NCBI RefSeq assembly: GCF_038002965.1
Contig: NZ_JBBOOE010000001.1
Location: 884,001 to 948,000 of the forward strand
DNA: 64,000 nucleotides
Reading direction: 5' to 3'
Origin: Robertmurraya sp. FSL R5-0851
GTDB lineage: Bacteria; Bacillota; Bacilli; Bacillales; Cytobacillaceae
Shown: positions 2,413 through 59,706 of the stretch, piece after piece
Position numbering within the stretch: the first letter of the stretch is position 1
Layout: each line of letters begins with the position of its first letter
The notes under the pieces: generated by a model
The model's database searches: none
What the model saw: the letters and a program-made list of their open reading frames with translations, nothing else
What the model was told of the DNA's origin: nothing
Position numbers and translations under genes: made by a program

Positions 2413-2490
2413 ACAGGAGCGGCTTCTGGAGAGATCGCGTATTGCGACGCCGAAGGGTTCACAATCTCAGGCAAAAGGACAGAAGAGTAA
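2413..2490 (+). ncRNA. Glycine riboswitch aptamer (single)
   Basis: The conserved glycine-aptamer segments appear in order: GGAGAG near 2428, CCGAAGGG near 2450, then CTCAGGCAAAAGGACAG near 2466-2482. Only one aptamer core is recognisable; the preceding leader (2325-2365) folds as a simple hairpin rather than a second aptamer. A terminator lies 85 bases downstream and an APC permease follows, matching the known association of singlet glycine riboswitches with amino acid transporters. Whether glycine turns expression on or off cannot be read from the sequence. Confidence 0.85.
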
Positions 2491-2573
2491 AGATACTATT
2501 TGGTATGAATGAAAGAGTAAGTAAGTTCTCTTTTTATCATTTAACCATGTGTATTTGTTATTCTGACGTTTTA

Positions 2574-54370: not shown

Positions 54371-54399
54371 TTGGGGGAGTTTTGTAATCGATATATACT
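54371..54399 (+). promoter_or_regulatory. Candidate promoter of the guanidine operon
   Basis: TTGGGG and TATACT spaced by 17 bases, about 65 bases before the aptamer. The -35 is weak. Confidence 0.45.
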
Positions 54400-54462
54400 G
54401 AAACCAACTTAAATCTTTGCAAGTAAATATAGGCTCTCCAAAAAAAGTATCAGTGAGAGCAA

Positions 54463-54568
54463 AAAGCTGTCTAGGGTTCCGTTGATATGGTGTCGTATCA
54501 AGTCTGGTCCAAGAGAGAGCGTATAGAATTTTTTTCTATATACACGGAAGGATAAAAGCCTGGGAGAT
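54463..54568 (+). ncRNA. Guanidine-I (ykkC) riboswitch aptamer
   Basis: The conserved ykkC segments appear in the right order: CTAGGGTTCCG (54471-54481), CTGGTCCAAGAGAG (54504-54517), ACACGGAAGGATAAAAGCC (54542-54560) and TGGGAGA. Variable stem loops lie between them, with the usual spacing. The match to the guanidine-sensing subtype (GGGTTCCG...GGTCC.AGAGA...ACACGG...AAAAGCC.GGGAGA) is close. It precedes an ABC transporter and carboxyguanidine-deiminase genes, which supports guanidine as ligand. The next hairpin uses part of the aptamer, so ligand binding should prevent termination. Confidence 0.9.
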
Positions 54569-54606
54569 TCATTCTCTCATTCTTTTATCCTTCTTTTATT
54601 TTTTCA
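54547..54606 (+). terminator. Riboswitch terminator overlapping the aptamer
   Basis: AAGGATAAAAG (within aptamer P3) pairs with CTTTTATCCTT, followed by CTTTTATTTTTT. It is mutually exclusive with the ligand-bound fold, so guanidine turns expression on. Confidence 0.85.
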
Positions 54607-54636
54607 AAAACAAAATTTAACTATGAGGTGAAGAGA

Positions 54637-55647
54637 ATGAGAAAAATGAAACATGTATTTTTAGCAGTCGTATTGGTTGGAACAATGTTCTTAAGTGCTT
54701 GTGGAAGTTCAACAAAAGAAACCTCTGGAAGTGAATCCAGTGGCAATACCGTTAAAATTGGTTTTAGTGCTCTACCTAGCTGGTACTTATGGCATCTTGT
54801 GGATCAAAAGGGTTTCTTTGAGAAATATGATGTTGATGTTGAATTGGTCTATTTTCCAGTCTATGCTGACTCCTTATCGGCCTTAAATACAGGGAAAATC
54901 GATGGAAATACTCAAGCATTGTTAGATGCGATTCCCCCTTTAGATAAAGGAATTGATTTAAAAACCATTTTTATTACGGATAATTCTATAGGTGGTGATG
55001 GAATTGTTGCCACAAGTGATATTCAATCTGTTGAAGATTTAAAAGGAAGATCTGTGGGTACGGAACTAGGAACGATTGAACACTTTTTCCTACTGACTGC
55101 TCTTGAAGATGCAGGTATGACGGAGTCTGATGTGAAATTCACAAACCTGACTGTCCCTGATGCAGGGAATGCTTTCCTATCCGGAAATATTGATGCAGCT
55201 GGACTTTGGGAGCCATTCTTAAGCAAAGCAGTTGGCAAGGAAGGCACACATAAACTGGTTACTTCTGCAGATTATCCTGGGTTAGTATCTGACGTCTTTG
55301 TTGTTCGAGAAGAGGTTACGAAAGAGAAGAAAGAAGAGTTACAAAGAATAGTAAATGCTTGGTTTGATGCCGTTGACTACTTGGAAAAGAATCCGGAAGA
55401 ATCCATTGATATTATTGCCAAAGAGGCTGGAATTACTAGTGAAGAGCTAACAGAAGGATTTAAAGGGTTCAAAATGTTTACCCCTGAAGATAATCTTGAT
55501 TCCTTCAAAGAAGGAAATAGTTACGATTCCTTCTACTATACAGCAGAGAAAAATGCAGAGTTCTTAAAGAGACAGGACTATGTGGATGAAATACCTGACT
55601 TCTCCAATTTTGTTGATTCGTCCTTTGTAGAAAATGTTTCAAAATAA
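54637..55647 (+). CDS. Guanidine-regulated ABC transporter substrate-binding lipoprotein
   Basis: The 336-residue lipoprotein has a lipobox FLSACGSS (Cys near 22) and the NitT/TauT (SsuA-like) binding-protein fold: SALPSWYLWHLVDQKGFFEKYDVDVEL, then NTQALLDAIPP, GGDGIVATSDI and GLWEPFLSKAV. Family members bind taurine, sulfonates, nitrate or thiamine precursors. Its place directly behind a guanidine-I riboswitch and ahead of carboxyguanidine deiminase genes suggests that it binds guanidine or a guanidino compound. ATG 54637 follows GAGGTG. This is inference; no ligand residues can be assigned. Confidence 0.82.
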   Translation: MRKMKHVFLAVVLVGTMFLSACGSSTKETSGSESSGNTVKIGFSALPSWYLWHLVDQKGFFEKYDVDVELVYFPVYADSLSALNTGKIDGNTQALLDAIPPLDKGIDLKTIFITDNSIGGDGIVATSDIQSVEDLKGRSVGTELGTIEHFFLLTALEDAGMTESDVKFTNLTVPDAGNAFLSGNIDAAGLWEPFLSKAVGKEGTHKLVTSADYPGLVSDVFVVREEVTKEKKEELQRIVNAWFDAVDYLEKNPEESIDIIAKEAGITSEELTEGFKGFKMFTPEDNLDSFKEGNSYDSFYYTAEKNAEFLKRQDYVDEIPDFSNFVDSSFVENVSK

Positions 55648-55670
55648 TAAGAATAGAAGGGGTGAGTGGA

Positions 55671-56486
55671 ATGAAGCTACCAAAAAATAGAACAATAAGA
55701 AGCTTAACTTCTATACGTGAAGAGGTTCCAAAAAAATGGTATTTGTTTGGTGTATGTATCACCTTTCTATTACTCTTCCTTTTCTGGGGTGGTATTAGGT
55801 TTATTAACATCGTTGACGAAGTTTTCCTGCCAACCCCAAACGGAGTGGTACTTTCGTTAGCTCAATCTTTTGGAAACCCAGAGTTTTGGGAGCATATTGG
55901 CATAAGTGTGTATCGCGTATTTATGGGATTTTTACTGGCTTGTGTGATTGGTATTCCACTTGGAATATTAGCAGGAACCTTTAAATTCGCAGAATCCTTT
56001 ATTTTACCAATGTCAGAGTTTATTCGTTATATGCCTGCAGCAGCCTTTATTCCTCTAATTATGGTATGGGCAGGAATTGGAGAAACAGCCAAGATATTGG
56101 TGATCTTCATCGGTTGTTTCTTTCAGCTCATCTTGATGGTGGCCGATGATACCAATCGTATTAGCAAAGATTTGCTTTACGCATCTTATACTCTTGGTGC
56201 GAATCGAAAGCAAGTGATTTTCAAAGTCATTATTCCTGCGTTGCTGCCAAAACTCATGACAACTCTACGTTTGATTATGGGCTGGGCTTGGACATATTTA
56301 GTCGTTGCTGAGCTGGTGGCAGCGAATAATGGACTTGGCTATTTCATCATGAAGGCACAGAGATTCTTAGATACAGAGTCTATCTTTGTAGGAATTATTG
56401 TCATTGGACTATTAGGGCTGATTATTGATAGAGCATTTGCGATCGCGAATAAAAAGTTATTTCCTTGGGTGGAAGGTGGGAATTAA
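55671..56486 (+). CDS. NitT/TauT-type ABC transporter permease
   Basis: The 271-residue SsuC/TauC-family permease has six helices. The EAA loop region LLYASYTLGANRKQVIFKVIIPALLPKLMTTLRLIMGWAWTYL (in parts, about 165-207) and LAGTFKFAESFILPMSEFIRYMPAAAFIPLI are the hallmarks. ATG 55671 follows AGAAGGGG; the GTG at 55662 overlaps it. The ATPase gene begins right at the stop codon. It forms the channel for the presumed guanidine importer. Confidence 0.87.
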   Translation: MKLPKNRTIRSLTSIREEVPKKWYLFGVCITFLLLFLFWGGIRFINIVDEVFLPTPNGVVLSLAQSFGNPEFWEHIGISVYRVFMGFLLACVIGIPLGILAGTFKFAESFILPMSEFIRYMPAAAFIPLIMVWAGIGETAKILVIFIGCFFQLILMVADDTNRISKDLLYASYTLGANRKQVIFKVIIPALLPKLMTTLRLIMGWAWTYLVVAELVAANNGLGYFIMKAQRFLDTESIFVGIIVIGLLGLIIDRAFAIANKKLFPWVEGGN

Positions 56487-57284
56487 ATGGTGACTATTGT
56501 ACAGCCAAAAGTGGTAGTCGATCCGGTTGATATCGAAATTGAAATCAATGGATTATCAAAAATCTACGAAACGAAAAACAGCACTTTCCAGGCTTTGGAG
56601 GATGTTTCTTTATATGTGAAAAATGAGGAGTTTGTTTCCATTTTGGGGCCATCTGGCTGTGGGAAATCAACCATTCTTCGAATATTAGCCGGCCTAGAAG
56701 AAGCAACGTCTGGGTCAGTTAAAGTAGCTGGTGAGGAAGTACAAGGTCCAAGCGTCAAGCGGGGGATGGTCTTCCAATCTTATACCCTTTTTCCATGGTT
56801 GACCGTTCGGGAGAATATTGAATTTGGTTTGAAGTTAAAAGGTGTTAGCCCGAAGGAACGGAAAGACATTTCTGATAAATACTTAGCGGTTGTTGGTCTT
56901 GAGCGGTTTGCCAATTCTTATGGAAAAGAATTATCAGGTGGCATGAAGCAGCGTGTGGCCATTGCCCGTTCATTAGCAAATAATCCAGAGGTCTTGTTGA
57001 TGGATGAACCGTTTGGGGCACTTGACGCGCAAACGAAGCAGTCCATGCAGCAATTGCTATTAGATATTTGGAAAAAAGAAAAAACAACCATTGTCTTTAT
57101 TACCCACGACATTGATGAATCGATCTTTCTATCCCAACGAATTTATGTAATGGATGCTCGTCCTGGAAAAATTAAAGAAGAAATTAATGCAGATCTTCAA
57201 CTATTTAAGAATGGCGAACTAGTCGAAGTGGACCGATTTATGAAACTTAAGAAACATATCATTACGCTACTCAAGCATGGATGA
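56487..57284 (+). CDS. NitT/TauT-type ABC transporter ATPase
   Basis: The 265-residue ATPase has Walker A GPSGCGKST (about 52-60), Q-loop MVFQSYTLFPW, signature ELSGGMKQR, Walker B VLLMDEPFGALDAQT and switch FITHDIDES. It is of the SsuB/TauB type. Its ATG directly follows the permease stop, so translation is coupled. It drives the importer encoded by the two genes before it. Confidence 0.9.
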   Translation: MVTIVQPKVVVDPVDIEIEINGLSKIYETKNSTFQALEDVSLYVKNEEFVSILGPSGCGKSTILRILAGLEEATSGSVKVAGEEVQGPSVKRGMVFQSYTLFPWLTVRENIEFGLKLKGVSPKERKDISDKYLAVVGLERFANSYGKELSGGMKQRVAIARSLANNPEVLLMDEPFGALDAQTKQSMQQLLLDIWKKEKTTIVFITHDIDESIFLSQRIYVMDARPGKIKEEINADLQLFKNGELVEVDRFMKLKKHIITLLKHG

Positions 57285-57307
57285 TGGATTAAAAGGAGGA
57301 AATTAGG

Positions 57308-58021
57308 ATGACACATGTTTGGTCGACCATTCTTTCTCCTGGTGGAAAATGGTCAGGGTTTATAAAACGAGGGAAATGTATTCGTTTTACTGCACTTGAG
57401 GAAGGTGCGAATGTATCCATTCTTTTTTATAACGCAAGGGATTTAACCGAGCGCTATGTCATGTCCGACACACTAAAGTCTCAGTTTACAAGCCATTTAA
57501 CAAAAGGTCATGTTCTTTTAAGTGATAATGGCCGAGTGTTGGCAAGTTTTTTAGAAGATAGTGTTGGCTGGCATGATCCGATCGCTGGATGTACGACTCG
57601 TGAGAAAACGGATGCTAAATATGGAGTAACCACCTATCAAATTCAGCGAAACGAGTATTTTCGAAGTGGGCGAGAAAACTTGATTACCGAGCTTGCTCGA
57701 AATGGCTTAGGGGCACGTGATTTAGTACCAGTAGTCAATTTATTTTCTAAAATCACTACAAATGAAAATGGTCAATTAACCTTTCAAAAAAGTCATTGTC
57801 CTAAAGGTGCAAGAGTGACCTTAAGAACGGAGATGGATCTTTTAGTTGTCCTCTCCAATACACCTAATCCTCTAGATCCAAAGACAGAGTTTCCGGCTGT
57901 GCCTGTCCAAATGGAGGTTTCCTCTTCTCCCCAAGTAGAAGAGAATGACATATGTGTGAACAATCGTCCCGAAAATCGACGTGCATTTGAAAATACTTGG
58001 GCTTATTACGATTTATACTGA
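57308..58021 (+). CDS. Urea carboxylase-associated protein 1 (DUF1989), carboxyguanidine deiminase subunit
   Basis: The 237-residue DUF1989 protein begins with an unusual GGKWSGFIKRGKCIRFTALEEGANVSILFYNARDLTERY segment. It then has ASFLEDSVGWHDPIAGCT (about 79-96) and YGVTTYQIQRNEYFRSGRENLITELARNGLGARDLVPVVNLF in parts. This is the UAAP1 type (about 235 residues). UAAP1 and UAAP2 together form the carboxyguanidine deiminase of guanidine catabolism, converting carboxyguanidine to allophanate. AAAGGAGGAAATTAG precedes the ATG. The partner follows 30 bases later. Only the family is certain. Confidence 0.87.
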   Translation: MTHVWSTILSPGGKWSGFIKRGKCIRFTALEEGANVSILFYNARDLTERYVMSDTLKSQFTSHLTKGHVLLSDNGRVLASFLEDSVGWHDPIAGCTTREKTDAKYGVTTYQIQRNEYFRSGRENLITELARNGLGARDLVPVVNLFSKITTNENGQLTFQKSHCPKGARVTLRTEMDLLVVLSNTPNPLDPKTEFPAVPVQMEVSSSPQVEENDICVNNRPENRRAFENTWAYYDLY

Positions 58022-58051
58022 ATACTTTTTTCGAAGAAGGAGGGTCAAACA

Positions 58052-58702
58052 ATGCCTGTTCTAACGAAAGTGGAAAGTCCCCGAGACACGAAGGATGCGA
58101 TATATAGTGAAACCATTTTGGCTGGGAAAGGATTTATGCAAAAGCTTCTACCCGGACAAGTAATAAGAATTGAAGACATAGAAGGAAACCAATCAGTGGA
58201 TGCTTTGTTTTATGATGCGGACAATCCAGACGATCACTATAGCACCGTTTTAACCATTGCTGAGCAGGAGAATATGTACCTTAAGACCGGTTCGACCCTA
58301 CTTGCGGAATCAGGTAAAGAACTCGTCACTATTGTTGCAGATACAGTTGGTTGCCATGATGCTTGGTTTAGTTTTTGTTCTGCCCAAAGCAATACGGTCC
58401 GCTATGGACATGACAAGATTGATATGCATAACTGTCGTGATACCTTTTTGCTTTTGATGGAAGAAAATCAAGCGGGATATACAAAAAGAGATCTACCGCC
58501 AAGCGTTAACTTCTTTTGTATTGTACCTTTTACTCAGGATGGTGCCATTGAATTCGTTGATGGTATTTCTGCACCTGGAAGCTATGTTGAGCTAAAAGCG
58601 AAATGTAACACAATGGTCCTTCTTAGCAACTGCTCCCAGCTGAACAACCCATGCAATGACTACAATCCTACACCTATTAAAGTCTATATCTGGGAATCGT
58701 AG
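58052..58702 (+). CDS. Urea carboxylase-associated protein 2 (DUF1989), carboxyguanidine deiminase subunit
   Basis: The 216-residue DUF1989 protein has GQVIRIEDIEGNQSVDALFYDADNPDDHYS, then VADTVGCHDAWFSFCSAQSNT (about 89-109) with conserved Cys/His/Asp, and IDMHNCRDTFLLLM. LPPSVNFFCIVPF and the NPCNDYNPTPIKVYIW ending identify UAAP2. It pairs with the preceding gene product. In known guanidine operons a biotin-dependent guanidine carboxylase and allophanate hydrolase accompany them; neither is in this window. AAGAAGGAGGG precedes the ATG. Confidence 0.88.
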   Translation: MPVLTKVESPRDTKDAIYSETILAGKGFMQKLLPGQVIRIEDIEGNQSVDALFYDADNPDDHYSTVLTIAEQENMYLKTGSTLLAESGKELVTIVADTVGCHDAWFSFCSAQSNTVRYGHDKIDMHNCRDTFLLLMEENQAGYTKRDLPPSVNFFCIVPFTQDGAIEFVDGISAPGSYVELKAKCNTMVLLSNCSQLNNPCNDYNPTPIKVYIWES

Positions 58703-58764
58703 AATGTGAGTTTACTTAAATGGCTTTTTAACGGAAATGTAATTCATTAAAGGGAGGAATTATT

Positions 58765-59499
58765 CTGGAGAAATATATTGATCTAAACTGCGATATGGGA
58801 GAAAGCTTTGGCCTGTATAAGTATGGTGCTGATGAGGAGCTCATGCCATTAATAAGCTCGGCTAATATTGCGTGTGGTTTTCATGCGGGGGACCCACATG
58901 TCATGCGCGAGTCTGTCGAGTTGGCCGTTCAATATGGTGTAAGGGTGGTAGCGCATGTAGGATTACCCGATAGATTAGGCTTTGGTCGTCGTGAAATGAA
59001 AGTTAAGCCACAAGAGATCTACGATTATACTCTTTATCAGCTCGGAGCTCTTACTAGTTTCTTGCAAAAGAGTCATACATCATTGTCTCATATTAAACCG
59101 CATGGTGCTCTTTATATGATGACAGCTGAAAAAAGAGAGCTAGCGGAAGTAACGGTGGAAGCCGTTTTGGACTTCAATCGTGAAATTGAGATCTATACAT
59201 TACCAAATTCAGAGCTTTATCATGCGGCAAAGGAAGCAAAATTAAAGGTAGTGAGCGAATATTTTGCTGATCGACCGTATGTGAATAATTATGTGAAAAT
59301 GTTCGGCTGGACATTAGAGGAAATTGGACAGCCAAACACAATGGCCAAAAGAGCTTTGCAGTTGTTGGAGGAAAGCCCTGTTGAAACGATTTGTGTGCAT
59401 AGTGATACGCCTAATGCACCAGCAATTATGAGATCGGTTCGAGAAGCCTTATTAGAAAAGGGCTGGCAAATAGGAAGGAAATCGTTAATAGTTAAGTAA
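58765..59499 (+). CDS. pxpA: LamB/YcsF-family protein (5-oxoprolinase subunit A-like)
   Basis: The 244-residue protein is full length only if it starts at CTG 58765 (or ATT 58762), since the conserved N-terminus EKYIDLNCDMGESFGLYKYG lies before the first ATG. AGGGAGG is seven bases before that CTG. Other motifs: SSANIACGFHAGDPHVM (about 31-47), VAHVGLPDRLGFGRREM and HIKPHGALYMM. PxpA acts with PxpB and PxpC to open 5-oxoproline using ATP; those partners are absent here. It is the last gene of the guanidine-riboswitch operon, 62 bases behind UAAP2. Role in this setting is unknown. Confidence 0.82.
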   Translation: MEKYIDLNCDMGESFGLYKYGADEELMPLISSANIACGFHAGDPHVMRESVELAVQYGVRVVAHVGLPDRLGFGRREMKVKPQEIYDYTLYQLGALTSFLQKSHTSLSHIKPHGALYMMTAEKRELAEVTVEAVLDFNREIEIYTLPNSELYHAAKEAKLKVVSEYFADRPYVNNYVKMFGWTLEEIGQPNTMAKRALQLLEESPVETICVHSDTPNAPAIMRSVREALLEKGWQIGRKSLIVK

Positions 59500-59669: not shown

Positions 59670-59706
59670 TGAAAAGGTGTCAGACATAGATTCTGACACC
59701 TTTTTG
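59670..59706. terminator. Bidirectional terminator
   Basis: AAAAGGTGTCAG pairs with CTGACACCTTTTT around a 9-base loop. Confidence 0.8.

Follow-up and report, generated by a model that had tools for sequence, protein, structure and literature searches.

The window analysed here is a 64,000-nucleotide stretch of Robertmurraya sp. FSL R5-0851 (genome positions 884001-948000; all operon coordinates are positions in this window), and it carries an operon in which a guanidine-I riboswitch precedes an ATP-binding cassette (ABC) importer, a pair of carboxyguanidine deiminase subunits (UAAP1 and UAAP2) and a divergent PxpA-like gene of the LamB/YcsF family. On balance, and with only a little more confidence than doubt, we read it as a guanidine-induced import and deimination operon, the PxpA-like protein of which would take part in allophanate breakdown, with carboxylation supplied by a second operon. 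The two parts of this reading differ in strength: cooperation with the distal carboxylase is very probable, and the chances for and against the allophanate role are evenly poised. The pathway is a known one in a new variant form, and the PxpA-like assignment would be a testable new enzyme role. We infer the PxpA step from the position of the gene, from two relatives in which the classical enzyme is not found and from a biuret cluster.

Architecture of the guanidine-I operon

The guanidine-I (ykkC) riboswitch aptamer (54460..54568, + strand) matches RF00442 over the full length of the model (positions 1-107; 92.9 bits, gathering threshold 63). From 54546 onward, its 3' part doubles as the 5' arm of a terminator-like hairpin with a U-rich tail (54546..54594, + strand; fold -26.9 kcal/mol, z -7.0), none of 200 shuffled sequences being equally stable. 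The predicted arrangement is an aptamer coupled to a terminator-like expression platform, an overlap given as the usual layout of guanidine-I on-switches in passages of PMC12186494. A first-pass annotation, made from the DNA letters, had described both the shared 3' helix and the order of genes downstream; the RNA match and the hairpin z score bear out the former, and family models the latter.

All six genes lie on the + strand and comprise (i) the importer's substrate-binding protein of the SsuA/NMT1 family (54637..55647; TIGR01728, 213.3 bits, cut-off 163.5), in which a lipobox is visible by eye; (ii) its permease (55662..56486; PF00528); (iii) its ATPase (56487..57284; PF00005); (iv) UAAP1 (57308..58021; TIGR03425, 294.3 bits, cut-off 205.95); (v) a UAAP2-like deiminase subunit (58052..58702; PF09347); and (vi) the PxpA-like protein (58765..59499; PF03746, 266.8 bits, cut-off 22). 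UAAP2 (TIGR03424) is the best model for the second DUF1989 protein, yet its 255 bits fall below the cut-off of 284.7, as is also the case for the ortholog from the Paenibacillaceae genome G856 discussed below. The initial annotation had placed the start of the PxpA-like gene at the first ATG; this is corrected to a position further upstream, the probable start being the CTG at 58765 that follows a GGAGG. CTG likewise appears to be the start in three kin, and TTG in the fifth genome of the genus. The operon would be transcribed as one unit, with guanidine as its presumed inducer and cargo.

A second operon encodes the remaining pathway steps

No carboxylase, PxpC or allophanate hydrolase is encoded in the window, the PF02626 and TIGR02713 matches of the genome all falling outside 884001-948000; the absence of carboxylase and allophanate hydrolase from operon and window had been correctly noted. 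Both enzymes are found at L005:10326-18832 (genome C1:3740326-3748832), in an operon that comprises an APC permease, UAAP1, UAAP2, a 1214-residue carboxylase and an allophanate hydrolase (TIGR02713, 600 bits, cut-off 511). Of the four guanidine-I riboswitch matches in the genome, three are strong and one is weak; two separate strong ones belong to this second operon, one ahead of the permease and one ahead of UAAP1.

According to passages of PMC11410670, the residues at positions 1330 and 1584 of the K. lactis enzyme define guanidine as opposed to urea carboxylases. D697 of the second-operon carboxylase aligns with K. lactis N1330, and D949 corresponds to position 1584 by counting in the same alignment, so that the enzyme is of the guanidine type by its Asp signature. 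As predicted from sequence, the whole genome encodes every step of the guanidine carboxylase pathway. The lack of a carboxylase in the window operon is not in itself a variant route, because the steps are found elsewhere in the genome, and a carboxylase-free route was rejected on finding the second operon. Of the two alternatives offered by the first-pass annotation, the one placing carboxylase and hydrolase elsewhere proved correct, both under the same riboswitch class. Such a complete locus, combined with separate transcription of the PxpA-like gene, was to render the window operon ordinary; the locus exists, but separate transcription of the gene is not shown.

The UAAP pair of the window is a second copy that has diverged from the second-operon pair, with which it shares 58% identity. 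Its identity to the pairs of the G856 and G587 operons (62-66%) says little about descent, because ordinary Paenibacillaceae pairs score much the same (about 57-66%).

Passages of PMC11410670 and PMC12508155 describe guanidine carboxylase operons under guanidine riboswitches, for instance in Pseudomonas syringae and Vreelandella boliviensis, which contain carboxylase, CgdA/B, allophanate hydrolase and an ABC importer. The window operon resembles these in riboswitch class, ABC importer and UAAP1/2 pair, but the genome splits the pathway over two operons, duplicates the UAAP pair and adds the PxpA-like gene, which in two relatives stands in the place of allophanate hydrolase.

A divergent LamB/YcsF protein conserved in the genus

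The PxpA-like protein aligns over its whole length with the canonical PxpA of the same genome, which adjoins PxpB and PxpC at 2.755 Mb, and the two have their invariant residues in common. It differs from canonical PxpA in the segment that follows the ADR(P/A)Y motif, which is shorter, and in its own AHxG(L/F)PD and CVHSDT motifs. Of the subfamily models, NF003814 exceeds its cut-off and NF003816 narrowly misses it, and three equivalog models fall far short of theirs; matches at E <= 0.001 are solely to LamB_YcsF/PxpA, with none to TIGR02713. The predicted structure (predicted local distance difference test score 90) superimposes on the LamB/YcsF structures 2dfa/1v6t with template modelling scores of 0.87-0.89. 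By model and by sequence, the protein is a LamB/YcsF barrel and not an amidase-signature protein; its likeness to allophanate hydrolase of the AtzF/TIGR02713 type (amidase plus C-terminal domain) lies in operon position in two relatives, with no sequence match. In a tree of 34 rows, with L134 and L136 left out, subfamily and canonical PxpA form separate clades (support 100/100), and the seven members from guanidine operons form a single clade (support 99/97).

Proteins 90-95% identical to those of the genome bear Robertmurraya source names, in keeping with its genus. Within the genus, the operon is kept in 5/5 genomes; in every one it ends with the PxpA-like gene, 3' of the deiminase genes and on their strand, and a guanidine-I aptamer also precedes the operon in the other four. 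The dN/dS values of the gene against the window copy (0.078-0.098) indicate purifying selection in the genus.

The resemblance to the 5-oxoprolinase system PxpABC concerns fold, family and invariant residues; unlike canonical PxpA, the window protein has no linked PxpB/PxpC. The initial description of a PxpA without PxpB/C holds for the vicinity of the gene, but not for the genome, in which a canonical PxpBCA locus exists elsewhere. The idea that the window gene is the sole 5-oxoprolinase subunit of the genome was rejected, a canonical PxpA standing beside PxpB/C. To our knowledge, the part played by PxpA in the three-protein 5-oxoprolinase is unclear.

At the level of titles and abstracts, no publication was found that links LamB/YcsF or 5-oxoprolinase to guanidine or allophanate. 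Term searches of the accessible text returned no mention of YcsF, LamB, PxpA or oxoprolinase in PMC12186494 and PMC11410670, none of LamB or 5-oxoprolin in PMC12508155, and nothing on allophanate in PMC13274462, which deals with PxpTABC.

Possible replacement of allophanate hydrolase in two Paenibacillaceae

Support for an allophanate-related role comes from two Paenibacillaceae genomes, G856 (P. xylaniclasticus) and G587, in which the gene order is UAAP1-UAAP2-carboxylase-PxpA-like. Both carboxylases carry the guanidine-type Asp signature, by which their assignment as urea carboxylases was rejected, and both operon stretches also contain genes for an ammonium transporter and PII. No allophanate hydrolase is recognisable genome-wide in either, the best matches reaching 214.7 bits in G856 and 177.9 bits in G587 against a cut-off of 511; the G587 assembly is a single contig, 100% complete. 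Ten of the 11 other genomes searched have an allophanate hydrolase over the cut-off, and the eleventh, G583, is 66% complete.

A carboxylase search of 394 Paenibacillaceae returned 110 genomes at E <= 1e-290 (107 over the family cut-off, with 3 partial matches kept). The stretches inspected had 1.5 kb flanks for 29 of these 110 beside that of G856 (30 in all), and the rest extended for about 3-5 kb or to the contig end. Allophanate hydrolase lies within 600 bases downstream on the same strand in 104 of the 110 loci, and in two, those of G856 and G587, the PxpA-like gene occupies its position. Plain counting puts the probability that a given pair of loci would both belong to the six lacking allophanate hydrolase at 15/5995 (~0.0025), although the two genomes are related and this value does not test for independence. 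The suggestion that PxpA-like chemistry replaces or supplements a step was not shown by the window genome but is supported by these two relatives, from which the protein may be judged to replace or supplement the classical allophanate hydrolase.

A different, though unlikely, role would be that of an accessory subunit: instead of acting on allophanate, the PxpA-like protein would bind to the PxpB/PxpC-like carboxyltransferase domains of the carboxylase and aid it in substrate range or product release. The carboxylase indeed has PxpC-related regions (TIGR00724 matches the G856 enzyme with 278.7 bits) and PxpB-related ones, and the PxpA-like gene follows it directly in G856 and G587. In the genus of the window, however, gene and carboxylase belong to different operons, a PxpA-like gene is missing from 108 of the 110 carboxylase stretches, and the missing allophanate hydrolase would be left unexplained.

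MerR- or IclR-type regulator genes are found near the two replacement operons, and a hidden Rfam riboswitch was rejected by an RNA-family scan up to E = 1, which returned just two eukaryotic RNA families (0.11 and 0.48). Because no Rfam riboswitch is present there, the case for guanidine as the substrate of these operons is built on the Asp signature and the UAAP genes.

Distribution and neighbourhoods of the subfamily

Sought at E <= 1e-72, the LamB/YcsF subfamily of the window gene is rare in the sampled genomes, with matches in (i) 1/397 other genomes of the class sample; (ii) 3/396 others of the order sample; (iii) 5/193 genomes of the family, every one in the genus of the window; (iv) 8/394 Paenibacillaceae; and (v) 1/28 chosen genomes, the same as G856. 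A plasmid search gave one member among the 30 records listed (H1, with an amidase neighbour). The PxpA-like match of G873 (C1:2433234-2433941) contains one in-frame stop and may be a broken copy.

UAAP genes stand beside the subfamily gene in 7 of 17 loci. Free-standing PxpB/C genes near it were found in none of the 17 loci examined, that of the window included; the matches in 2/17 are both domains of a fused carboxylase. The canonical control comprised 80 PxpA loci among the matches listed (contig search with the subfamily alignment, <=46% identity), just 53 of which extended for the full 10 kb in each direction. Both PxpB and PxpC are near in 70/80, and UAAP in 0/80; five of the ten loci without PxpB/C are short stretches. 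The count of 70/80 was obtained with the genome's own PxpB as query, a query cut from the carboxylase being insensitive (29/80).

In the ten subfamily loci outside guanidine operons, the neighbours are amidase (8), NCS1 permease (8), formamidase (2) and biuret amidohydrolase (1). The last adjoins the member at L170, a more distant one (395.1 bits for the amidohydrolase, cut-off 370). Biuret amidohydrolase produces allophanate, and allophanate is therefore a known intermediate common to the L170 cluster and the guanidine operons. At L170:4240-11766, the genes are GntR, amidase, PxpA-like, biuret amidohydrolase, NCS1 permease and formamidase, and an agmatinase-family gene lies upstream in the opposite orientation; by gene content, this may be a set for triazine or azapyrimidine breakdown. 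At L172:3471-10177, a PxpA-like gene has a xanthine-dehydrogenase-like oxidoreductase set on one side and an NCS1 permease on the other.

Such neighbours lend some plausibility to ring opening, in which the PxpA-like protein opens a cyclic guanidino or ureido compound (e.g., creatinine or a ring of the azauracil type) taken up together with guanidine, and so supplies the pathway at its upper end. The LamB/YcsF family has links to lactams, and relatives of the protein occur with NCS1 nucleobase-type permeases (8/17), amidase (8/17), formamidase (2/17) and a xanthine-dehydrogenase-like enzyme (one locus). We nevertheless consider this improbable, slightly more so than docking on the carboxylase: all seven loci of the guanidine clade are devoid of NCS1, amidase and formamidase in the stretches examined, and why G856 and G587 should have no allophanate hydrolase again goes unexplained. 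An ordinary spare 5-oxoprolinase subunit or passenger gene without a guanidine role, to which the PxpA family models and the PxpB and PxpC encoded elsewhere might point, is scarcely credible given that a canonical PxpA already stands beside those genes, that the subfamily is split from canonical PxpA at 100/100 without linked PxpB/C, and that the gene is kept in 5/5 genus genomes with dN/dS < 0.1.

Several observations weigh against allophanate breakdown by the PxpA-like protein. The function is not needed in the window genome, because an intact allophanate hydrolase is kept there. The substitution is seen in two related genomes and does not represent independent events, and neither replacement operon has an Rfam guanidine riboswitch. 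Neither gene is found downstream of the carboxylase in four other loci, namely those of G830 and G831 (seen in the locus view only) and L281 and L283, which run into contig ends; the L283 carboxylase has Asn at the signature position. Just one of the ten loci outside guanidine operons includes biuret amidohydrolase. Finally, 8 of the 17 subfamily loci have an amidase beside the gene, and all six such genomes searched keep allophanate hydrolase, five of them with carboxylase as well.

Proposed pathway and implications

In the reading that we favour, guanidine would enter through the ABC importer and stabilise the aptamer, freeing transcription and inducing both operons. The distal carboxylase would then make carboxyguanidine, which UAAP1/2 would deiminate to allophanate, and the PxpA-like hydrolase would break down allophanate alongside the classical enzyme of the second operon. 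The steps ahead of the PxpA-like one follow the pathway described in passages of PMC12186494, PMC11410670 and PMC12508155. The PxpA-like protein would act on allophanate or its immediate breakdown product, and alone rather than with PxpB/C.

If so, the last step of guanidine and urea-carboxylase nitrogen use would gain an enzyme of a second type, and a PxpA relative that seemingly works without PxpB/C on a simple predicted substrate would make LamB/YcsF chemistry directly testable. More tentatively, and with the odds somewhat against it, the subfamily could be a PxpB/C-independent allophanate hydrolase, unrelated to the amidase type and recruited to the catabolism of guanidine and perhaps biuret; extended to PxpA proteins in general, the idea would be that they hydrolyse amides N-activated by a PxpB/C-type (urea-carboxylase-like) module. 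The 5-oxoprolinase system would then share one chemistry with the urea/guanidine carboxylase systems. At Thermomicrobium roseum L174:3699-7429, a canonical PxpA occurs with a short protein annotated as acetyl-CoA carboxylase, two carboxyltransferase proteins and BioY, a gene content that suggests that some PxpBC systems are biotin dependent.

Further features of the loci

Homologues of the window binding protein (36-51% identity) occur in at least 12 of the 110 Paenibacillaceae carboxylase stretches. The G830 and G831 loci correspond to L209 and L270, and the carboxylase run of L270 includes an ABC importer related to that of the window. The weak guanidine-I match of the genome (41.9 bits, below the gathering threshold; L007:2765-3523, genome C1:2096764) precedes two small multidrug resistance proteins, and passages of PMC12186494 give small multidrug resistance genes behind a guanidine-I riboswitch as the layout of guanidine exporter operons. 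Downstream of the window operon, a pattern scan marks a terminator-like hairpin (59670..59706, + strand), support for which is weak because the number of such hairpins in the region (4) is close to the shuffled mean (4.2). A glycine riboswitch aptamer (50.9 bits) is located at window positions 2416-2492.

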